From an uncultured Gammaproteobacteria bacterium (lineage in GTDB: Bacteria > Pseudomonadota > Gammaproteobacteria > DRJJ01): a stretch of 64,000 nt of DNA. This document shows, one piece after another, positions 18,361 through 26,398 of this stretch (positions within the stretch are counted from its first letter, which is position 1; each line of letters opens with the position of its first letter). Both the position numbers and the translations under genes were made by a program. The stretch spans positions 45,531 to 109,530 of the forward strand of contig CAMYJU010000018.1 of NCBI GenBank assembly GCA_947258795.1, written 5' to 3'. The notes under the pieces were generated by a model. It searched no databases and was not told the DNA's origin. It saw only the letters and a program-made list of their open reading frames with translations.

Positions 18361-18880
18361 TAAGCCCGGTAGTTTCTTCATCCGTATCCTGATATATGGT
18401 TTGCTGCTGTGTACGGCGGGCGTATCGTTTGCGCAGACACTCGGGAAAAAACAGCCGATGACGGTCGAGGCCGACCGGGCAGAACTGAATGAACGTACCG
18501 GGGTGAGTGTCTATACGGGTAATGTCGTCGTGACACAGGGCGGTATGACCATGAAGGCCGAGCGGATGAGCCTGCATACCACAGATCGCAAGCTCACGCG
18601 TATTGTTGGTACGGGCAAGCCGGCCAGCTTCAAACAGCAAGCCAGTCGTAATGCAACACCGATCTCCGGCAAGGCACAGAAATTCATCTATCTGCCAAAG
18701 AAGAACCAGCTGACGTTGATAGGCAATGCGTCCTTACTCAAGGATGATAATACGTTTAATAGTGAACGTATCGTGTATAACACGGCCAATGAGTATGTCA
18801 GCGCAGGCAGCAAGGCCGGTGGCAAGCGCGTAAAAATCGTTATACAGCCCGAAGAAGAGAGTGAAGACAGCCAGCCATGA
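18347..18880 (+). CDS. lptA: LPS transport periplasmic protein LptA
   Basis: A 177-residue OstA-domain protein. A signal peptide occupies about 1-30 ([20 protein letters not shown]). The OstA repeats begin with [40 protein letters not shown]. It forms the periplasmic filament that carries LPS from LptC to LptD. GTG at 18347 is preferred because an AAAGG lies 8 nt upstream; GTG at 18338 is possible. The stop overlaps lptB by 4 nt. Confidence 0.93.
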
Positions 18881-19602
18881 GCCAGTTACGGGTTGAGCAT
18901 TTACACAAGGCATATCGTGCGCGCCAGGTGGTCCGGGATGTCAGCCTGAATGTCAAAGCCGGTGAAGTGGTGGGTTTGCTGGGCCCCAACGGGGCTGGCA
19001 AGACTACCTGTTTTTACATGATCGTTGGGCTGATTCGGGTTGATCAGGGTGGTATTTGGATCGATGACCGGGATATCACGCTGGAACCCGTGCATGAACG
19101 GGCGCGTTCAGGTCTGGGTTACCTGCCCCAGGAGGCCTCTGTGTTCAGGCAGCTGACGGTGGAACAGAATATCCTGGCGGTTCTGGAATCCCGACCCGGA
19201 CTGGACAAACCACAGCGATTTTCTCGTATGGAGCGGCTACTCGAGGAACTGCACATTAGTCATTTGCGCAAGAATACCGGTATCAGCCTGTCCGGGGGAG
19301 AGCGCCGGCGGGTGGAAATTGCCCGGGCGCTGGCGCTGGAGCCGCGTTTCGTATTGCTGGATGAGCCTTTTGCCGGGGTCGATCCGATATCGGTAGGGGA
19401 TATCCAGCATATTATCCAGCACCTGGTTGATCGCGATATCGGGGTGCTGATTACCGACCACAATGTCCGCGAAACGCTGGGAATCTGCTCCAGGGCCTAT
19501 ATTCTCAGTGATGGCGGTGTTATTGCTGAGGGGACCCCGGATGTGATTCTGCAACATGATCAGGTCAAGGCGGTCTATTTGGGTGAAGACTTCAGGCTGT
19601 AA
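18877..19602 (+). CDS. lptB: LPS export ABC transporter ATPase LptB
   Basis: A 241-residue ABC ATPase. Walker [10 protein letters not shown] is at 36-44, the Q-loop is in [19 protein letters not shown], the signature [15 protein letters not shown] at about 136-150, and Walker [12 protein letters not shown] follows. The H-loop is ITDHNVRE. It drives LPS extraction from the inner membrane with LptFG, which are not encoded here. It ends the kdsD-kdsC-lptC-lptA-lptB run; about 170 bp separate it from rpoN. Confidence 0.97.
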
Positions 19603-19658
19603 GTTGGTGAAAACTTGATCCGGATCATGTCATGCGCATTGCGGCCTGACCGCGGATA

Positions 19659-19674
19659 TGGCACGATAAATGCA
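19659..19674 (+). promoter_or_regulatory. Sigma-54 (-24/-12) promoter match upstream of rpoN
   Basis: TGGCACG (19659-19665), four bases, then ATGCA (19670-19674). The GG and GC dinucleotides are 12 bp apart, as sigma-54 holoenzyme requires. Only one base departs from TGGCACG-N4-TTGCW. Transcription would begin near 19685, about 85 bp before the rpoN start. This suggests rpoN is transcribed, at least in part, by its own product; an enhancer-binding protein would be needed and its site is not identified. Confidence 0.6.
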
Positions 19675-19769
19675 GAGAGACAAAATATAGGCTATAACAG
19701 GTAGTGTGATGTGATGTGTTCAGGCAGCCCATTTCGGCGGCGCCACCTGTTGAAATAAATCGTATATAA

Positions 19770-21260
19770 ATGAAACAATCCCTTCAGTTACGTCTCGGTC
19801 AAAGCCTGACTATGACGCCCCAATTACAACAGGCCATCCGCTTGTTGCAGCTGTCCACAGTTGATTTACAGCAGGAAATTCAGGAAGTACTGGATTCCAA
19901 CCTGATGTTGGAACAGGTTGATGAGTCGGAAGAGCAGCCGCAAGCTGTGGCGGACGACAAGACTGAGCAAGAACCGGCAGAAAACCGCTCCGAAGAGGCG
20001 GAAGAGCCTGCCGAGGCCGAAGCTGCAGCAGCCGAGCAGGCGGCCGAAACAATCCCGGAAGAGCTGCCGGTGGACAGTAGCTGGGAGGACGTTTATGACG
20101 GCAGTACCAGTTACTCCGCGGCGGCCGACAGCGGCCATGATGATCAATATGAAACCCGCCCGGAACAGGGTGAGAGCCTGTATGAACACCTGTTATGGCA
20201 GCTGGACCTGACCCCGTTTAGTGAAGTCGATCATGCCATAGCCCTGGCCCTGCTGGATTCCATCGGTGAGGATGGTTACCTGTATGCCCCGCTGGACGAG
20301 ATCCTGCAGGGTTTACAGGACCAGGGACTTGAGATCGAAATGGATGAGGTGGAGGCGGTGCTGCATCGTATCCAGCGTTTTGACCCGGTCGGTGTTGCCG
20401 CCCGTAGTGTCGGCGAATGCCTGAGTATACAGTTACAGCAGTTACCGCCGGAAACCGCATGGCGTGAACAGGCGCTGCTGGTGGTTGATCAGTACCTGGA
20501 TGCACTGGGTCGCCGTGACCTGGCCCAGATTATGCGCAGTCTGCGCCTGAAAGAGGATGAATTACAGCAGCTGATTGACCTGATTCAGACCATGAACCCC
20601 AGGCCCGGTGCGATGCTGGCCGCGCCACCACCTGAATACGTGATTCCTGATGTGCTGGTCACCAAGATCAAGGGCAGCTGGCGGGTAGAGTTGAATCCGG
20701 ATACCTTGCCACGTCTGCGCATCAACAATGAGTATGCTAGCCTGATTCGCAAGGTAGAAAACAAGGGCGAAAACACCACCCTGAAAAACCATTTACAGGA
20801 AGCGCGCTGGTTTCTGAAAAGTCTGATGAGCCGCAATGAAACCCTGCTCAAGGTGGCGACCTGTATTGTTGAACGACAACGCGGATTTTTTGACTATGGT
20901 GAAGAGGCGATGAAACCGCTGGTACTCAGGGATGTGGCCGAATCTGTCGGTATGCATGAATCGACCGTTTCCAGGGTGACCACTCAAAAATACATGCACA
21001 CCCCGCGTGGGATATTTGAATTCAAATACTTTTTCTCCAGCCATGTGAATACCAGTGATGGAGGGGAGTGTTCTGCTACCGCGATTCGTGCCATTATTCG
21101 CAAATTGATCGCTGCTGAAAGTCCATCAAAACCGCTCAGTGACAGCAAAATCACTGATGTGTTACTGGACCAGGGGATCAAGGTGGCGCGACGTACGGTG
21201 GCAAAATACCGGGAAGCCATGATGATTGCGTCTTCAAGTGAACGCAAACGACTGGCTTGA
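19770..21260 (+). CDS. rpoN: RNA polymerase sigma-54 factor
   Basis: A 496-residue sigma factor. Region I is Gln/Leu-rich (1-50: LRLGQSLTMTPQLQQAIRLLQ). A long acidic region II spans about 52-105, with an Ala/Glu-rich run. The core-binding domain covers about 110-300. A helix-turn-helix with VAESVGMHESTVSRVT is near 390. The RpoN box ARRTVAKYREAM is at 473-484 and contacts the -24 element. It directs nitrogen, motility and other activator-dependent promoters. No strong Shine-Dalgarno is visible before the ATG. Followed at once by hpf-ptsN-hprK-rapZ, the usual rpoN neighbourhood. Confidence 0.97.
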   Translation: MKQSLQLRLGQSLTMTPQLQQAIRLLQLSTVDLQQEIQEVLDSNLMLEQVDESEEQPQAVADDKTEQEPAENRSEEAEEPAEAEAAAAEQAAETIPEELPVDSSWEDVYDGSTSYSAAADSGHDDQYETRPEQGESLYEHLLWQLDLTPFSEVDHAIALALLDSIGEDGYLYAPLDEILQGLQDQGLEIEMDEVEAVLHRIQRFDPVGVAARSVGECLSIQLQQLPPETAWREQALLVVDQYLDALGRRDLAQIMRSLRLKEDELQQLIDLIQTMNPRPGAMLAAPPPEYVIPDVLVTKIKGSWRVELNPDTLPRLRINNEYASLIRKVENKGENTTLKNHLQEARWFLKSLMSRNETLLKVATCIVERQRGFFDYGEEAMKPLVLRDVAESVGMHESTVSRVTTQKYMHTPRGIFEFKYFFSSHVNTSDGGECSATAIRAIIRKLIAAESPSKPLSDSKITDVLLDQGIKVARRTVAKYREAMMIASSSERKRLA

Positions 21261-21285: not shown

Positions 21286-21582
21286 ATGCAAATCAACCTG
21301 ACAGGACATCATGTAGATCTTACTGATTCGCTACGAGACTATGTGCACGACAAGTTTGAAAAACTGGAAAGACATTTTGATCATCTGACCAGTATTCATG
21401 TTGTTCTGGGAGTGGAAAAATTACGTCACAAGGCAGAGGCCACCATCCATATGAACGGGAACAGTGTCTTTGCCGATGCGACCCAAGAGGACATGTATGC
21501 AGCGATCGATCTGTTGCTGGACAAGCTGGACAGACAGGTCCTGAAATACAAGGAAAAACTGAAGGACCACCATCGTCGCTAG
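21286..21582 (+). CDS. hpf: Ribosome hibernation promoting factor, short form
   Basis: A 98-residue HPF/RaiA-type protein (MQINLTGHHVDLTDSLRDYVHDKFEKLERHFDHL...). It binds the 30S decoding region and, in the short form, helps form 100S dimers in stationary phase with RMF. The beta-alpha-beta-beta-beta-alpha pattern is complete, and the long-form C-terminal dimerisation domain is absent. An in-frame extension upstream exists, but the ATG at 21286 is preceded by AGGAGA at the right distance. It lies 25 bp after rpoN. Confidence 0.94.
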   Translation: MQINLTGHHVDLTDSLRDYVHDKFEKLERHFDHLTSIHVVLGVEKLRHKAEATIHMNGNSVFADATQEDMYAAIDLLLDKLDRQVLKYKEKLKDHHRR

Positions 21583-21607: not shown

Positions 21608-22093
21608 ATGTTGAATATTTCTGATCTGTTAACGCCGGATCGAGTAGTCTGTAACTTTCACGCCAGCAGCAAGAAGCGGGTACTGGAGGAGTTGAGTGAC
21701 CTGTTGGCAAAAAATACCGACGAAATGGATGCGGGAGAGATTTTCGAGGGACTGATCGAGCGTGAACGGCTCGGCAGTACCGGTTTGGGCCATGGAGTGG
21801 CCATCCCACATGCACGTCTGCCTGGTCGTGAGAAGGCCAAGGGCGCTTTTATAAAGCTGCATAGCGGCGTGGATTTTGATTCGATCGACCAGAAGCCGGC
21901 GGATTTGCTGTTTGCGCTGCTGGTGCCGGATCACTTCACGGACGAGCATCTTGATCTGTTGGCGGGGCTGGCACGTATGTTTGATAGTGACGAACTGTGC
22001 CGGAAGTTGAGACAGAGTGACAACAAGTCAGAGTTATTTGATCTGCTGATGAACAACAAGGAATTTGGGGACCTGTCATCGGTCTCACAATGA
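21608..22093 (+). CDS. ptsN: PTS-Ntr EIIA component PtsN
   Basis: A 161-residue EIIA(Ntr) domain. The phosphorylated His is H68 in GLGHGVAIPHARLPG. It is a regulatory phosphoacceptor (potassium transport, nitrogen and stress signalling in studied species) and not a sugar transporter. It sits in the hpf-ptsN-hprK order and is followed by hprK. A potential longer hprK start (22065) would overlap it, but the preferred hprK start does not. Confidence 0.95.
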   Translation: MLNISDLLTPDRVVCNFHASSKKRVLEELSDLLAKNTDEMDAGEIFEGLIERERLGSTGLGHGVAIPHARLPGREKAKGAFIKLHSGVDFDSIDQKPADLLFALLVPDHFTDEHLDLLAGLARMFDSDELCRKLRQSDNKSELFDLLMNNKEFGDLSSVSQ

Positions 22094-22163: not shown

Positions 22164-23111
22164 ATGGAAGGACCGCAAACGCCTGCAGAACTGATGGATG
22201 AGGTGGGTCTGCGCTTGAGAATGGAGTGGGTCTCGGGCCGGGAACATGCCGGTCGTCCTTTGTATCCTGATAGCGCAGAGCATGCGGCTACCACGCTGAT
22301 TTCGCACTATAATCCCGTCCGCCCCGCGCACATCCAGGTCATCGGATGTCGGGAAATAAGCTACCTGAAAGACCTGTCTGAGCCGTTGCGTGCGGAGCAG
22401 TTACTGGCGCTCGCGTTGCAGCCTGATCTGGCCATGCTGATCTTCGCTTCCGGCCTGAGTGCCGACCCGGACGTGATCGAGGTCATGCAGCAGCATTCAA
22501 TGCCCGTACTCAGGAGTTACCTGGATGCCGATGTGTTGATAGCGCAGTTGCGCTACTGCCTGCACGGTCACGTGTCCGAGCATACGCTGTTACATGGTGT
22601 GTTTATGGAGGTACTGGGCACCGGTGTGATGCTCACCGGTGAAAGCGGTGTGGGTAAAAGCGAAATAGCACTGGACCTGATCAGTCGCGGGCACAGGCTG
22701 ATTGCCGATGATGTTATCGAATGTCACCGGGTATCGCCAGATATTATTGCCGGTGTATGCCCGGGTGTATTGTGGGAATTCCTTGAGGTGCGCGGACTGG
22801 GTATACTGAATATCCGGGAATTATTCGGAAACAGTGCGCTCAAGCATAGCAAGAATTTGCGACTGATCCTGAACCTGGTATTAATGAGTGATGAAGAGAT
22901 GCGTCAAGTAGACAGATTGCATGGTAGCCATTCCACCCGGGAAATACTGGGCGTAGACATTGCCGAGCTAAGCATCCCGGTGGCTGCCGGGCGTAACCTG
23001 TCTATTGTGGTGGAAACCGCGGTGCGGAATCATAATCTGATTCGCCGGGGCTATGATGCGGTCAAGGACTTCAAGGAGCGACATCAGCGTGTCATCCGCA
23101 GCGACAGATAA
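22164..23111 (+). CDS. hprK: HPr kinase/phosphorylase
   Basis: A 315-residue bifunctional enzyme that phosphorylates and dephosphorylates HPr on a regulatory serine. Its Walker A loop GESGVGKS is at about 159-166, followed by ALDLISRGHRLIADDVIE and the signature VRGLGILNIRELFG. The N-terminal domain is of the HprK_N type. An in-frame start at 22065 exists but would overlap ptsN and has no family precedent visible; ATG 22164 (MEGPQTPAELMDEV) is chosen. HPr in this cluster has the Ser46 it would act on. Confidence 0.92.
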   Translation: MEGPQTPAELMDEVGLRLRMEWVSGREHAGRPLYPDSAEHAATTLISHYNPVRPAHIQVIGCREISYLKDLSEPLRAEQLLALALQPDLAMLIFASGLSADPDVIEVMQQHSMPVLRSYLDADVLIAQLRYCLHGHVSEHTLLHGVFMEVLGTGVMLTGESGVGKSEIALDLISRGHRLIADDVIECHRVSPDIIAGVCPGVLWEFLEVRGLGILNIRELFGNSALKHSKNLRLILNLVLMSDEEMRQVDRLHGSHSTREILGVDIAELSIPVAAGRNLSIVVETAVRNHNLIRRGYDAVKDFKERHQRVIRSDR

Positions 23112-23967
23112 ACGGCTGATTATTGTTACCGGTCTATCGGGGTCCGGTAAAAGTATCGCACTTCATACACTTGAAGATATCAATTATTACTGTATAGATA
23201 ATCTCCCGGTGGGTATGCTCAAGGGTATCGGTGACCAGCTTGCCGGTATGTGGGGTAGTCTGCATCAGAAAGTGGCGGTGGGTATCGACGCCCGTAACAA
23301 CCCTGAGGACCTGAAGCATTTCCCGCAAATGATCGACAGCATACGCCGCACAGGCGCAAAGATCGACATGATCTACCTGCAGGCGGAAACCCCGACCTTG
23401 CTGAAGCGTTTTAGTGAAACCCGGCGCCGGCATCCGTTGACCAGTGAACTGGTCTCGCTGGCCGACGCAATCGAACTGGAGAAGCAGTTGCTGGAACCGC
23501 TGGGTGACCAGAGCGATCTTTTTATCGATACCACGCATACCACGATATATGAATTACGTGAACTGGTACGGCAAAGGGTGCTGCATGAAGAGTCCCGTAC
23601 CCTGTCGATACTGTTCCAGTCATTTGGCTTCAAACATGGTGTGCCGGGTGATACCGACTACCTTTTTGATGTAAGGTGTTTGCCCAATCCACACTGGCAG
23701 GCCGAGCTGCGCCATTTGACCGGATGCGACCAGGCGGTGGTTGATTATCTTGAGCAACATGACATGGTGCATGATATGCACGGACAAATCGGTCGTTTTC
23801 TGATGAACTGGATACCGGTGTTTGAACGGGAAAACCGCAGTTACCTGAATATTTCCATTGGTTGTACCGGGGGGCAGCATCGTTCGGTTTATCTGGCCGA
23901 GGCGCTGGCCCAGGACTTCAGGGCGACCCGGCCGGAAGTACTGGTCAGGCACAGGGAGTTGTCATGA
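23089..23967 (+). CDS. rapZ: RNase adapter / nucleotide-binding protein RapZ
   Basis: A 292-residue P-loop protein. Walker A GLSGSGKS is at about 15-22, followed by ALHTLEDINYYCIDNLPVGML. The C-terminal domain ends with IGCTGGQHRSVYLAEAL, the conserved RapZ signature. In E. coli it binds GlcN6P and guides RNase E to the sRNA GlmZ. The GTG at 23089 is chosen because AAGGAG lies 10 nt upstream; this start overlaps the end of hprK by 23 nt. An ATGA overlap joins it to the EIIA gene. Confidence 0.94.
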   Translation: MSSAATDKRLIIVTGLSGSGKSIALHTLEDINYYCIDNLPVGMLKGIGDQLAGMWGSLHQKVAVGIDARNNPEDLKHFPQMIDSIRRTGAKIDMIYLQAETPTLLKRFSETRRRHPLTSELVSLADAIELEKQLLEPLGDQSDLFIDTTHTTIYELRELVRQRVLHEESRTLSILFQSFGFKHGVPGDTDYLFDVRCLPNPHWQAELRHLTGCDQAVVDYLEQHDMVHDMHGQIGRFLMNWIPVFERENRSYLNISIGCTGGQHRSVYLAEALAQDFRATRPEVLVRHRELS

Positions 23968-24395
23968 GTGTCGGGCTGATGGTGATTACCCATGCGAATC
24001 TGGCGGAAAGCCTGATTGCCAATGCGCGTGACATGTTGGGCTCGGAACCCCTGCGCATGGCGGCTTTGTCAGTCGGGCATACCGATGATATGGATCAGAT
24101 GCAGACCAGGGCGGCGGAGTATTGCCAGACCCTGGACCAGGGGGATGGTGTGCTGGTGCTGACGGATGTATTTGGTTCCACACCCAGCAATATCGCCTGC
24201 ATGATATGTGCCCGGCATAAATCGAAGATTATTGCCGGCGTCAATCTGCCGATGATGATCAGGGTACTGAATTATCCGCATATGAATCTGGATGAACTGG
24301 CTGAAAAGGCACTTAGCGGTGGCCGCGATGGTATTTTGATGTGCTGTTCCGCGAACGGCTCGTCAATGCCTGACGACCCGCAAAGAGACAAGTAG
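23964..24395 (+). CDS. PTS EIIA component, mannose family
   Basis: A 143-residue EIIA(Man)-type domain. The phosphoryl-accepting His is H10 in GLMVITHANLAESL. Conserved FGSTPSNIA and AGVNLPMMIRVLNY follow. No EIIB, EIIC or EIID is present here, so it most likely transfers phosphate for regulation rather than sugar uptake. In alpha-, beta- and some gammaproteobacteria the same orphan EIIA accompanies HPr, EI and HprK. The start overlaps the rapZ stop (ATGA). Confidence 0.93.
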   Translation: MSVGLMVITHANLAESLIANARDMLGSEPLRMAALSVGHTDDMDQMQTRAAEYCQTLDQGDGVLVLTDVFGSTPSNIACMICARHKSKIIAGVNLPMMIRVLNYPHMNLDELAEKALSGGRDGILMCCSANGSSMPDDPQRDK

Positions 24396-24404
24396 CGCAA
24401 GCTG

Positions 24405-24674
24405 ATGGCCAGTTGTGAGCTGACAATTATTAACAAACTGGGTCTGCATGCCCGTGCCGCTGCCAGGTTTGTCACGCTGGCCTCGGAATTTGATTGCCAT
24501 ATCAGCGTCTGTCGTAATGGGCAAAGTGTGAACGGAAAAAGCATTATGGGTGTGATGATGCTGGCGGCGTCCAGGGGAACCCAGATAACCATTAACGCTG
24601 ATGGGGCCGACGAAGAGCAGGCGATCAATGCGCTTGCCGAGCTGGTTAATGACCGTTTTGGTGAAGAGGTATGA
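24405..24674 (+). CDS. ptsH: Phosphocarrier protein HPr
   Basis: An 89-residue HPr. The active-site His is H15 in KLGLHARAAARFV, and the regulatory Ser is S46 in NGKSIMGVMML, the target of the HPr kinase encoded 2 kb upstream. It passes phosphate from EI to PtsN and the EIIA(Man)-type protein. It could equally be called an NPr-like carrier. It lies 9 bp after the EIIA gene, and its stop overlaps the EI start (ATGA). Confidence 0.96.
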   Translation: MASCELTIINKLGLHARAAARFVTLASEFDCHISVCRNGQSVNGKSIMGVMMLAASRGTQITINADGADEEQAINALAELVNDRFGEEV

Positions 24675-26398
24675 ATTTTTCCATAGCAGGTTTAAGTGTA
24701 TCTCAAGGTATCGCCATCGGGCGTATCAGCCTGCTCGAGCGTGGTTCACCGGACGTCCCTTCGTATACCCTGGCTGAGGATCTGATCGAGCCCGAGGTGG
24801 AACGCTTCAGTCGGGCTGTAGACAAGACTGTAGCCCAGCTCAGTTCGGTCCGCGACCGCATCCCGGCTTCTGCACCAACAGATATTGCCGCTTTTATCGA
24901 TACCCATTTGCTGATGCTGGATGATTCGGCGCTGCGCAAGGTACCGGCAGAGACCATACGCAGTACCGGGTGCAATGCCGAATGGGCGTTGAAATTACAG
25001 CGCGATGCCCTGGTTAATGTATTCGAGGAAATGGATGATCCGTACCTGCGTACACGCAAGGACGATGTCATCCATGTGGTCAATGGCATTCTGCGTTCCT
25101 TGCAAAGTCCGGAGGACGGTTCGTCACATGATGATGTACCGGTAATGAGTAACCGTATCGTGGTGGCCGACGATCTGACACCGGCGGATACGATACTACT
25201 GCATCATCAGGGTATCGCCGCCCTGCTGACCGAGTATGGTGGTCCTTTGTCGCATACCGCGATCCTGGCACGTAGTCTGCGGATTCCGATGCTGGTCGGT
25301 GTGCATGGTGCACGTCAGTGTTTGCGCAACAACGATCAGGTCATCCTCGATGGCCATTTTGGCCAACTGGTGGTGACCGAAGACGCGGAGATGCTGCGGC
25401 AGTACCGCGAACTTCAGTTGAAGGATCAGCGCCATTTTGCCTCGCTGGACAGGTTGCGCGATGAACCGGCAGTGACGACTGACGGGGTCGAGGTCCAGCT
25501 GCAGGCCAATATCGAGCTGCCTGGTGATATCGAGATGCTGGAGCAGGCGGGTGCGACCGGGGTAGGGCTGTTCCGGACAGAATTTCTGTTTATGAATCGC
25601 AGCCAGATGCCTGACGAGGAGGAGCAGTTCGAAGTATACCGGTCGGTCGTGAAGGCCCTGCAGGGCAAGCCGCTGACCTTGCGTACGCTGGACCTGGGTG
25701 CAGACAAGACGGTTGATGGAGAGGTCGCCAGTACCACCAATCCGGCACTGGGCCTGCGTGCAATACGTCTGTGTCTGCACGATCCGGATCTGTTTTATCC
25801 GCAGTTGCGTGCCATTCTGCGTGCATCAGTGTATGGTCCGGTAAGATTGATGGTGCCGATGATGTCCAGCCTGGTTGAACTACGCCAGGTGCAACGTATT
25901 ATCGGGATGGTCAAACAGGAGTTACGCCAGGCCGGCAAGGGCTTTGACGAGCATATTCCGGTCGGGGCCATGATTGAGGTGCCCTCTGCGGCACTGCAGG
26001 CCTATCACTTCGCCAGTGAACTGGATTTTCTGTCTATCGGCACCAATGATCTGGTGCAGTACACCATGGCGATCGACCGGGTAGATGACGAGGTTAACTA
26101 CCTGTACGATCCGCTGAACCCGGCCGTGCTGCGCCTGATCTTTCTGAGCCTGCGTGCCGGCAAGCGCGCGGGCGTGCCGGTTGCGATGTGTGGTGAAATG
26201 GCCGGTGATCGGCGCTTTACCCGGTTATTGCTCGGTATGGGTCTGCGCGAGTTCAGTATGCAGGCCACCTCCTGTTTGGATGTAAAGGACATAATCAGGC
26301 AGACAGACAGCCGTACGCTGCCCAGGCTGGTCAAGCAGATACTGTCCAGTGCCGATCAGGATGAAATCGACCATCTGCTGACACAGTTAAACGCCTGA
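24671..26398 (+). CDS. ptsI: PTS enzyme I (phosphoenolpyruvate-protein phosphotransferase)
   Basis: A 575-residue enzyme I. The phosphohistidine is H195 in YGGPLSHTAILARSL. The PEP-binding TIM barrel carries GLFRTEFLFM, RTLDLGADK, GAMIEVPSAAL, SIGTNDLVQY and the catalytic Cys in VAMCGEMAGD. It autophosphorylates from PEP and hands phosphate to HPr. The N-terminal GAF domain of PtsP is absent, so this is the general EI form. It ends the PTS run; about 100 bp separate it from mgtE. Confidence 0.96.
   Translation: MNFSIAGLSVSQGIAIGRISLLERGSPDVPSYTLAEDLIEPEVERFSRAVDKTVAQLSSVRDRIPASAPTDIAAFIDTHLLMLDDSALRKVPAETIRSTGCNAEWALKLQRDALVNVFEEMDDPYLRTRKDDVIHVVNGILRSLQSPEDGSSHDDVPVMSNRIVVADDLTPADTILLHHQGIAALLTEYGGPLSHTAILARSLRIPMLVGVHGARQCLRNNDQVILDGHFGQLVVTEDAEMLRQYRELQLKDQRHFASLDRLRDEPAVTTDGVEVQLQANIELPGDIEMLEQAGATGVGLFRTEFLFMNRSQMPDEEEQFEVYRSVVKALQGKPLTLRTLDLGADKTVDGEVASTTNPALGLRAIRLCLHDPDLFYPQLRAILRASVYGPVRLMVPMMSSLVELRQVQRIIGMVKQELRQAGKGFDEHIPVGAMIEVPSAALQAYHFASELDFLSIGTNDLVQYTMAIDRVDDEVNYLYDPLNPAVLRLIFLSLRAGKRAGVPVAMCGEMAGDRRFTRLLLGMGLREFSMQATSCLDVKDIIRQTDSRTLPRLVKQILSSADQDEIDHLLTQLNA

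Follow-up and report, generated by a model that had tools for sequence, protein, structure and literature searches.

The rpoN gene of this uncultured gammaproteobacterium, which encodes sigma-54 (σ54), is very probably controlled by its own product, either by repression or by activation. In the window (the whole stretch of 64,000 nucleotides that was analyzed), a -24/-12 (σ54-type) element, TGGCACGATAAATGCA, is present on the + strand at positions 19659-19674, between lptB and rpoN. The reading that we favor, with some reserve, is autorepression: the predicted σ54 site would repress rpoN by occluding an overlapping σ70 promoter. What the sequences show is the site itself, the conservation of the site, and, in most of the relatives that have it, a "-10-like" hexamer at a fixed distance from it; this reading builds on all three. 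Both the autoregulation of rpoN and the repression of overlapping promoters by σ54 are already in print, and the conserved nesting seen in the relatives is more interesting than the window's own site. No description of such a nested layout at rpoN was found in the available portions of the open-access literature.

The element (GG at 19660-19661 and GC at 19672-19673) begins 56 bp after the stop codon of lptB (18877-19602, + strand; TIGR04406, 383.6 bits). Its last base lies 95 bp before the ATG of rpoN at 19770, rather than the 96 bp given in the first-pass annotation. The rpoN gene (19770-21260, + strand; NF004595, PF00309, PF04963, and PF04552) has one match in the genome, and the activator-interacting, core-binding, and DNA-binding domains of RpoN are all present by Pfam. 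Behind it on the same strand are hpf (21286-21582; TIGR00741), ptsN (21608-22093; TIGR01419), hprK (22164-23111; TIGR00679), and rapZ (about 23092-23967; NF003828), which would share the control of rpoN if they are co-transcribed with it. The gene order assigned by NCBIfam and Pfam is lptB, rpoN, hpf, ptsN, hprK, rapZ, and then the genes for an EIIA-man type protein (above the Pfam cut-off and below that of NCBIfam), HPr, and enzyme I. The portion from 22164 to 26398, which encodes a bifunctional-type HPr kinase together with the EIIA-man-type protein, HPr, and enzyme I, is a case of a gammaproteobacterial regulatory PTS that includes HprK. For enhancer-binding proteins, the genome has 15 matches to PF00158, 11 of which exceed 160 bits; an exact GAFTGA loop is present in 9 of these 11. 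The 4 weak matches are uninformative, since matches to PF00158 arise in 14 of 14 control genomes.

When compared with TGGCACG-N4-TTGCW, TGGCACGATAAATGCA agrees at 11 of the 12 specified bases, the sole mismatch being an A in place of the first T of TTGC, and ten bases lie between the GG (-24) and the GC (-12), which is the canonical spacing. The first-pass description of a σ54-type match with correct GG/GC spacing before rpoN is thus borne out. Within the 64-kb window, this is the only match with one mismatch or fewer; matches with up to two mismatches are unremarkable in number (13 versus 15.5 expected). Across the whole genome, the pattern TGGCAYR-N5-TGCW gives 40 matches, including the rpoN site, versus 5 for the reversed pattern, so any lone site of this type is probably, but not certainly, real. 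(A single 298-kb contig carries 15 of these 40 sites and 3 of the 11 strong enhancer-binding proteins.) In 17 genomes chosen for having the site, TGGCAYR-N5-TGC gives 910 matches versus 461 for the control; therefore, about half of such sites in those genomes may be due to chance. A Fisher test on these genomes is circular, since they were selected by the site, and carries no weight here. For the element before rpoN, conservation settles the matter: no other 16-base stretch of the related lptB-rpoN gaps is as conserved, and so the element is not a chance match, which confirms, at the level of sequence, that the observed σ54-type element is real. A general promoter scan returned one site only, which lies too far downstream to matter.

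Conservation was assessed in lptB-rpoN gaps of gammaproteobacteria, with relatives of RpoN taken from the best 80 of 298 contig matches and from other genomes (including 80 regions from the matches listed). Of the 217 loci obtained, 12 were removed because they duplicated the sequence around the start of rpoN, leaving 205. Sites were scored with a matrix of approximate base frequencies, whose weights at positions 6, 7, and 13 of 16 were altered after the first alignment had been seen, and a sense score of at least 12, a cut-off of our own choosing, was called positive. A sense site is present by this measure in 72 of the 205 gaps and absent from the other 133, and the scores are bimodal. At the same cut-off, Markov shuffles gave a mean of 1.25 (maximum of 4 in 100), the reversed control and the 5' end of rpoN gave none, and the antisense strand gave 11; cut-offs of 8, 10, and 14 gave 78, 73, and 58 sense sites versus 32, 19, and 2 antisense ones. 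Two other results are independent of the score matrix. When 32 related gaps were aligned without use of the motif, the most conserved 16 bases started exactly at 19659 (mean top-base fraction of 0.833 versus 0.325 overall), and the GG and GC were kept in all 32 rows, including those of two low-scoring loci. In addition, 59 of the 79 TGGCA words present in the 205 gaps have a GC at the σ54 spacing, versus 9 or fewer at any of 15 other spacings.

In a FastTree phylogeny of RpoN, a 32-locus clade around the window contains 30 positives (support of 42 for all 32, 74 for 31, and 97 for an inner 10, all positive), and a second clade is positive in 13 of 13 loci (support of 100). The presence and absence of the site imply at least 22 state changes on this tree, suggesting frequent gain or loss of the site. 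The first-pass annotation had proposed conservation of the -24/-12 bases in relatives as a check, and these bases are indeed conserved. The region is missing from the only other genome available for the genus, where RpoN has no match, the contig stops at ptsN, and the DNA of the gap is unmatched. No such element was seen by eye in the 47-bp lptB-rpoN gap of E. coli K-12, no relative was found in the viral contigs searched, and Rfam gave no match up to E = 1 for positions 19300-20000.

Most of the relatives that have the site also have what appears to be a second, overlapping promoter. In 48 of the 72 positive loci, the element is separated by a single base (offset 1) from a hexamer that shares 4 or more of the 6 bases of TATAAT, with T1, A2, and T6 required. 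Another 7 loci have this hexamer at offset 7 and five have it at offsets 8, 13, 18 (two loci), and 21; in 12 of the 72, no such hexamer lies within 24 bases of the element. The sequence TA.A.T is found at offset 1 at 44 of the 72 rpoN sites versus 0 of 30 other σ54-type sites of this genome (distinct sites, those of the 40 genome matches that had loci). Since the element plus one base amounts to 17 bases, a standard spacer, the σ54 site fills the spacer of a likely σ70 promoter. At the matching -35 position a TG is present in 18 of 49 loci versus 0-5 at twelve neighboring positions, and the match to the -35 element is otherwise poor, with only 0-3 of its 6 bases present at -6 to -1. When the nested pattern was sought across the class, 49 matches were obtained in 274 genomes versus 4 for the control. 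At least 19 of these 49 precede rpoN (11 by tblastn, with 30 loci listed, and 8 by coordinates), and some of the remaining ones precede genes that by eye resemble glnA or pilin genes. Both glnA and the pilin genes are ordinary σ54 targets, where σ54 activates. Because the same hexamer follows sites before glnA-like and pilin-like genes, the hexamer alone is no proof of a σ70 promoter.

The window's own sequence differs from that of its relatives at this point. Its bases at offset 1 are AGAGAC where its clade has TANANT (TANNNT is present at offset 1 in 18 of the clade's 30 positives), and its leader, at 111 bp from the first base of the element to the ATG, is the longest of those 30, the others being 33-97 bp. 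When candidate σ70 promoters were scored, the highest-scoring one near the element was ATGGCA-N17-CAAAAT at 19658-19686 (+ strand), a weak candidate with 8 of 12 consensus bases, followed by the weaker ATGCAG-N17-TATAAC at 19670-19698 (+ strand). Either candidate would overlap a σ54 complex positioned on 19659-19674. Since the window lacks the offset-1 hexamer, an overlapping σ70 promoter of its own is an uncertain prediction.

Polymerase containing σ54 forms stable closed complexes and does not start transcription without an activator. In the proposed autorepression, σ54-RNAP would bind to the -24/-12 bases before rpoN as such a stable closed complex, and the bound complex would overlap the σ70 start region of rpoN, shutting out the σ70 polymerase. 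RpoN would thereby limit its own level as well as the level of the genes behind rpoN. If an enhancer-binding protein acts at the site, the same σ54 complex could also fire, and given the 11 strong enhancer-binding proteins of this genome, activation at the rpoN site is possible. Autorepression is favored because the site overlaps a likely σ70 promoter in most of the relatives that have it; counting against it are the lack of the offset-1 hexamer in the window, the 12 of 72 loci with no nearby hexamer, the incomplete occurrence of the hexamer within the clade (18/30), the poor -35 match, and the presence of the hexamer at some sites before glnA-like and pilin-like genes, as well as the 133 of 205 loci with no sense site and the 22 state changes on the tree. 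A broader version, which we put forward tentatively, is that many gammaproteobacterial lineages carry a "fused" element, in which the -24/-12 site fills the 17-bp spacer, occlusion would measure the level of σ54 holoenzyme with no dedicated regulator, and the two polymerases would start at nearly the same base. Such an element would be a brake when its activators are idle and a promoter when one is active.

A rather unlikely, although not negligible, alternative is positive feedback, in which the element is an ordinary σ54 promoter that an enhancer-binding protein fires under certain conditions, adding to a basal level of transcription. The element is canonical and in the sense orientation, and the genome has the enhancer-binding proteins, 9 with the exact GAFTGA loop, to serve it. 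Furthermore, the available text of one report describes positive autoregulation of rpoN via NifA in Rhodobacter capsulatus (PMC6925177), and that of a 2025 survey lists rpoN as enriched among predicted σ54 targets (PMC12316311). However, positive feedback leaves the fixed-spacing hexamer unexplained, and the search for an enhancer did not favor it. The distance from the lptB stop to the start of the element is 60 bp or less in 56 of 70 loci, which leaves little non-coding room; thus, any enhancer placed as far upstream as is usual would lie mostly in coding sequence. The commonest dyads upstream of the element are present in 5 of the 72 regions each, above the shuffle maximum of 2, and 15 of 15 checked occurrences of the top three fall within the lptB coding sequence, so that no enhancer common to the 72 upstream regions was found. 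The dyad GCAC-n-GTGC is present in 1 of the 72 positive loci and in 4 of 126 negative ones; certain six-mers are more frequent in the positive than in the negative loci. Within 19400-19658, where enhancer-binding protein sites had been suggested as a check, there is no full NtrC site (the best has 7 of 12 bases) and no full NifA site (TGT-N10-ACA; the best has 5 of 6 bases and straddles the lptB stop). Lineage-specific activators could hide an enhancer from a search for shared dyads.

The remaining explanations deny the element a σ54 role at present, and each is highly improbable. If the -24/-12-like string were a coincidence or a relic without present function in this genome, one could understand why the window has lost the neighboring hexamer kept by its clade and why 2 of the 32 clade loci score low; the 5 reversed-control matches genome-wide also show that a single match may arise by chance. 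Sequence drift would be expected in a relic, however, and the window's copy has a score of 16.1, among the higher ones, despite an RpoN that is only 56-67% identical to those of the other 31 members of the clade. There is similarly little to recommend the idea that the block is mainly a σ70-type or other promoter or operator, whose likeness to a σ54 site is incidental. The relatives do have the -10-like hexamer and a weak TG at -35, and in some of them a CATAAT lies inside the element. Nevertheless, the invariant bases are the GG and GC (32/32) with a variable N4, as σ54 contacts predict, and the -24/-12 bases persist even where the hexamer is absent or differs in position (offsets 1, 7, and 18). 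The preference of TGGCA words for a GC at the σ54 spacing (59/79) likewise speaks for σ54. Of the first-pass proposal that σ54 may drive rpoN, the presence of a σ54-type site controlling rpoN is well supported (72/205 overall and 30/32 in the clade); "driving" is not, given that no shared enhancer and no full NtrC or NifA site in 19400-19658 was found and that a likely σ70 promoter overlaps the site in most site-bearing relatives. That proposal had allowed for positive or interfering feedback, and the likely σ70 overlap (48/72) favors interference or autorepression.

The gap also contains, at 19615-19628, the sequence TTGATCCGGATCAT, which has 9 of the 10 bases of the FNR-type box TTGAT-N4-ATCAA and includes a perfect 12-bp palindrome at 19616-19627; it lies some 37 bp upstream of the -24 bases. 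FNR-type boxes with at least 9 bases are present in 7 of the 205 rpoN gaps versus a shuffle mean of 1.4, and 5 CRP/FNR-type regulators of the genome are above the Pfam cut-off. Judging from these matches, oxygen control of rpoN via the FNR-type box is possible.

Antisense matches scoring at least 12 occur in 11 of the 133 loci without a sense site and in 0 of the 72 with one, whereas shuffles of the 133 gave 0.9 on average and 4 at most. These loci (L079, L096, L106, L267, L281, and six more) include five in one region of the tree. Such sites would fit occlusion regardless of orientation. They were not relied on: several have TGCCA cores at a -35-like place, and a GC is found at the σ54 spacing for 6 of 23 TGCCA words versus 0-5 elsewhere.

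Autoregulation of RpoN in Pseudomonas includes the case of P. putida (Kohler 1994); in that species, the control is reportedly negative. For P. aeruginosa, the accessible part of one paper gives an RpoN ChIP-seq signal upstream of rpoN and states that RpoN regulates its own expression (PMC8855297). In the same species, a peptide that occupies -24 sites reduced the expression of native rpoN by roughly one-third, an effect that the authors, in the part of their report available, ascribe to loss of a consensus RpoN promoter (PMC5626770). Blocking of another promoter fits this effect equally well. Two Pseudomonas-type loci among our relatives, L061 (2910-2925) and L213, have AGGCATATAATTTGCT 91-92 bp before rpoN; this sequence has AGG rather than TGG, and a perfect TATAAT is enclosed between its -24 and -12 bases instead of following the element. 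The two types of promoter may thus overlap here in a different manner.

In E. coli, according to the portion of the study available, σ54 cut σ70 transcription by 10-60% in vitro, with purified components, at four overlapping promoters (PMC4551910). Like the class I/II σ54-repressed promoters described there, the rpoN layout has a -24/-12 site within the predicted σ70 footprint and a GC kept at -12. However, the class I/II targets named in that portion are argT, chaC, mdfA, and patA, whereas here the target would be rpoN itself, in a predicted layout that is conserved over many lineages. In the R. capsulatus nifU2-rpoN system, a σ54-dependent promoter likewise feeds rpoN, but, in the text available, that promoter lies before nifU2 and needs NifA, and a separate constitutive promoter precedes rpoN (PMC6925177). 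Here, in contrast, the element lies directly before rpoN and after lptB, with no full NifA site. The accessible sections of the aRpoN-DB survey, drawn from 1,414 organisms, report that COG1508 is enriched behind predicted σ54 promoters in gamma- and other proteobacteria, which is read as autoregulation; these sections mention no σ70 overlap and give no sign for rpoN (PMC12316311). In Ralstonia solanacearum, a predicted element, TGGCACAGCCTTTGCA, lies 63 bp before a second rpoN gene, rpoN2, whose expression is reported to be controlled by rpoN1 (PMC4371752, from the part available). That case represents cross-control between two rpoN copies, unlike the genome here with its single rpoN match. 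In G. sulfurreducens, the RpoN protein is described, in the available part of the report, as constitutive in the conditions tested (PMC2725144).

With such a conserved nested layout, the sign of the RpoN feedback is open to direct test. If the proposed autorepression is true, the supply of σ54 would not be simply constitutive in these bacteria. Instead, a built-in feedback would set it without any additional regulator, and this feedback may reach the ribosome-hibernation and PTS genes that lie behind rpoN.
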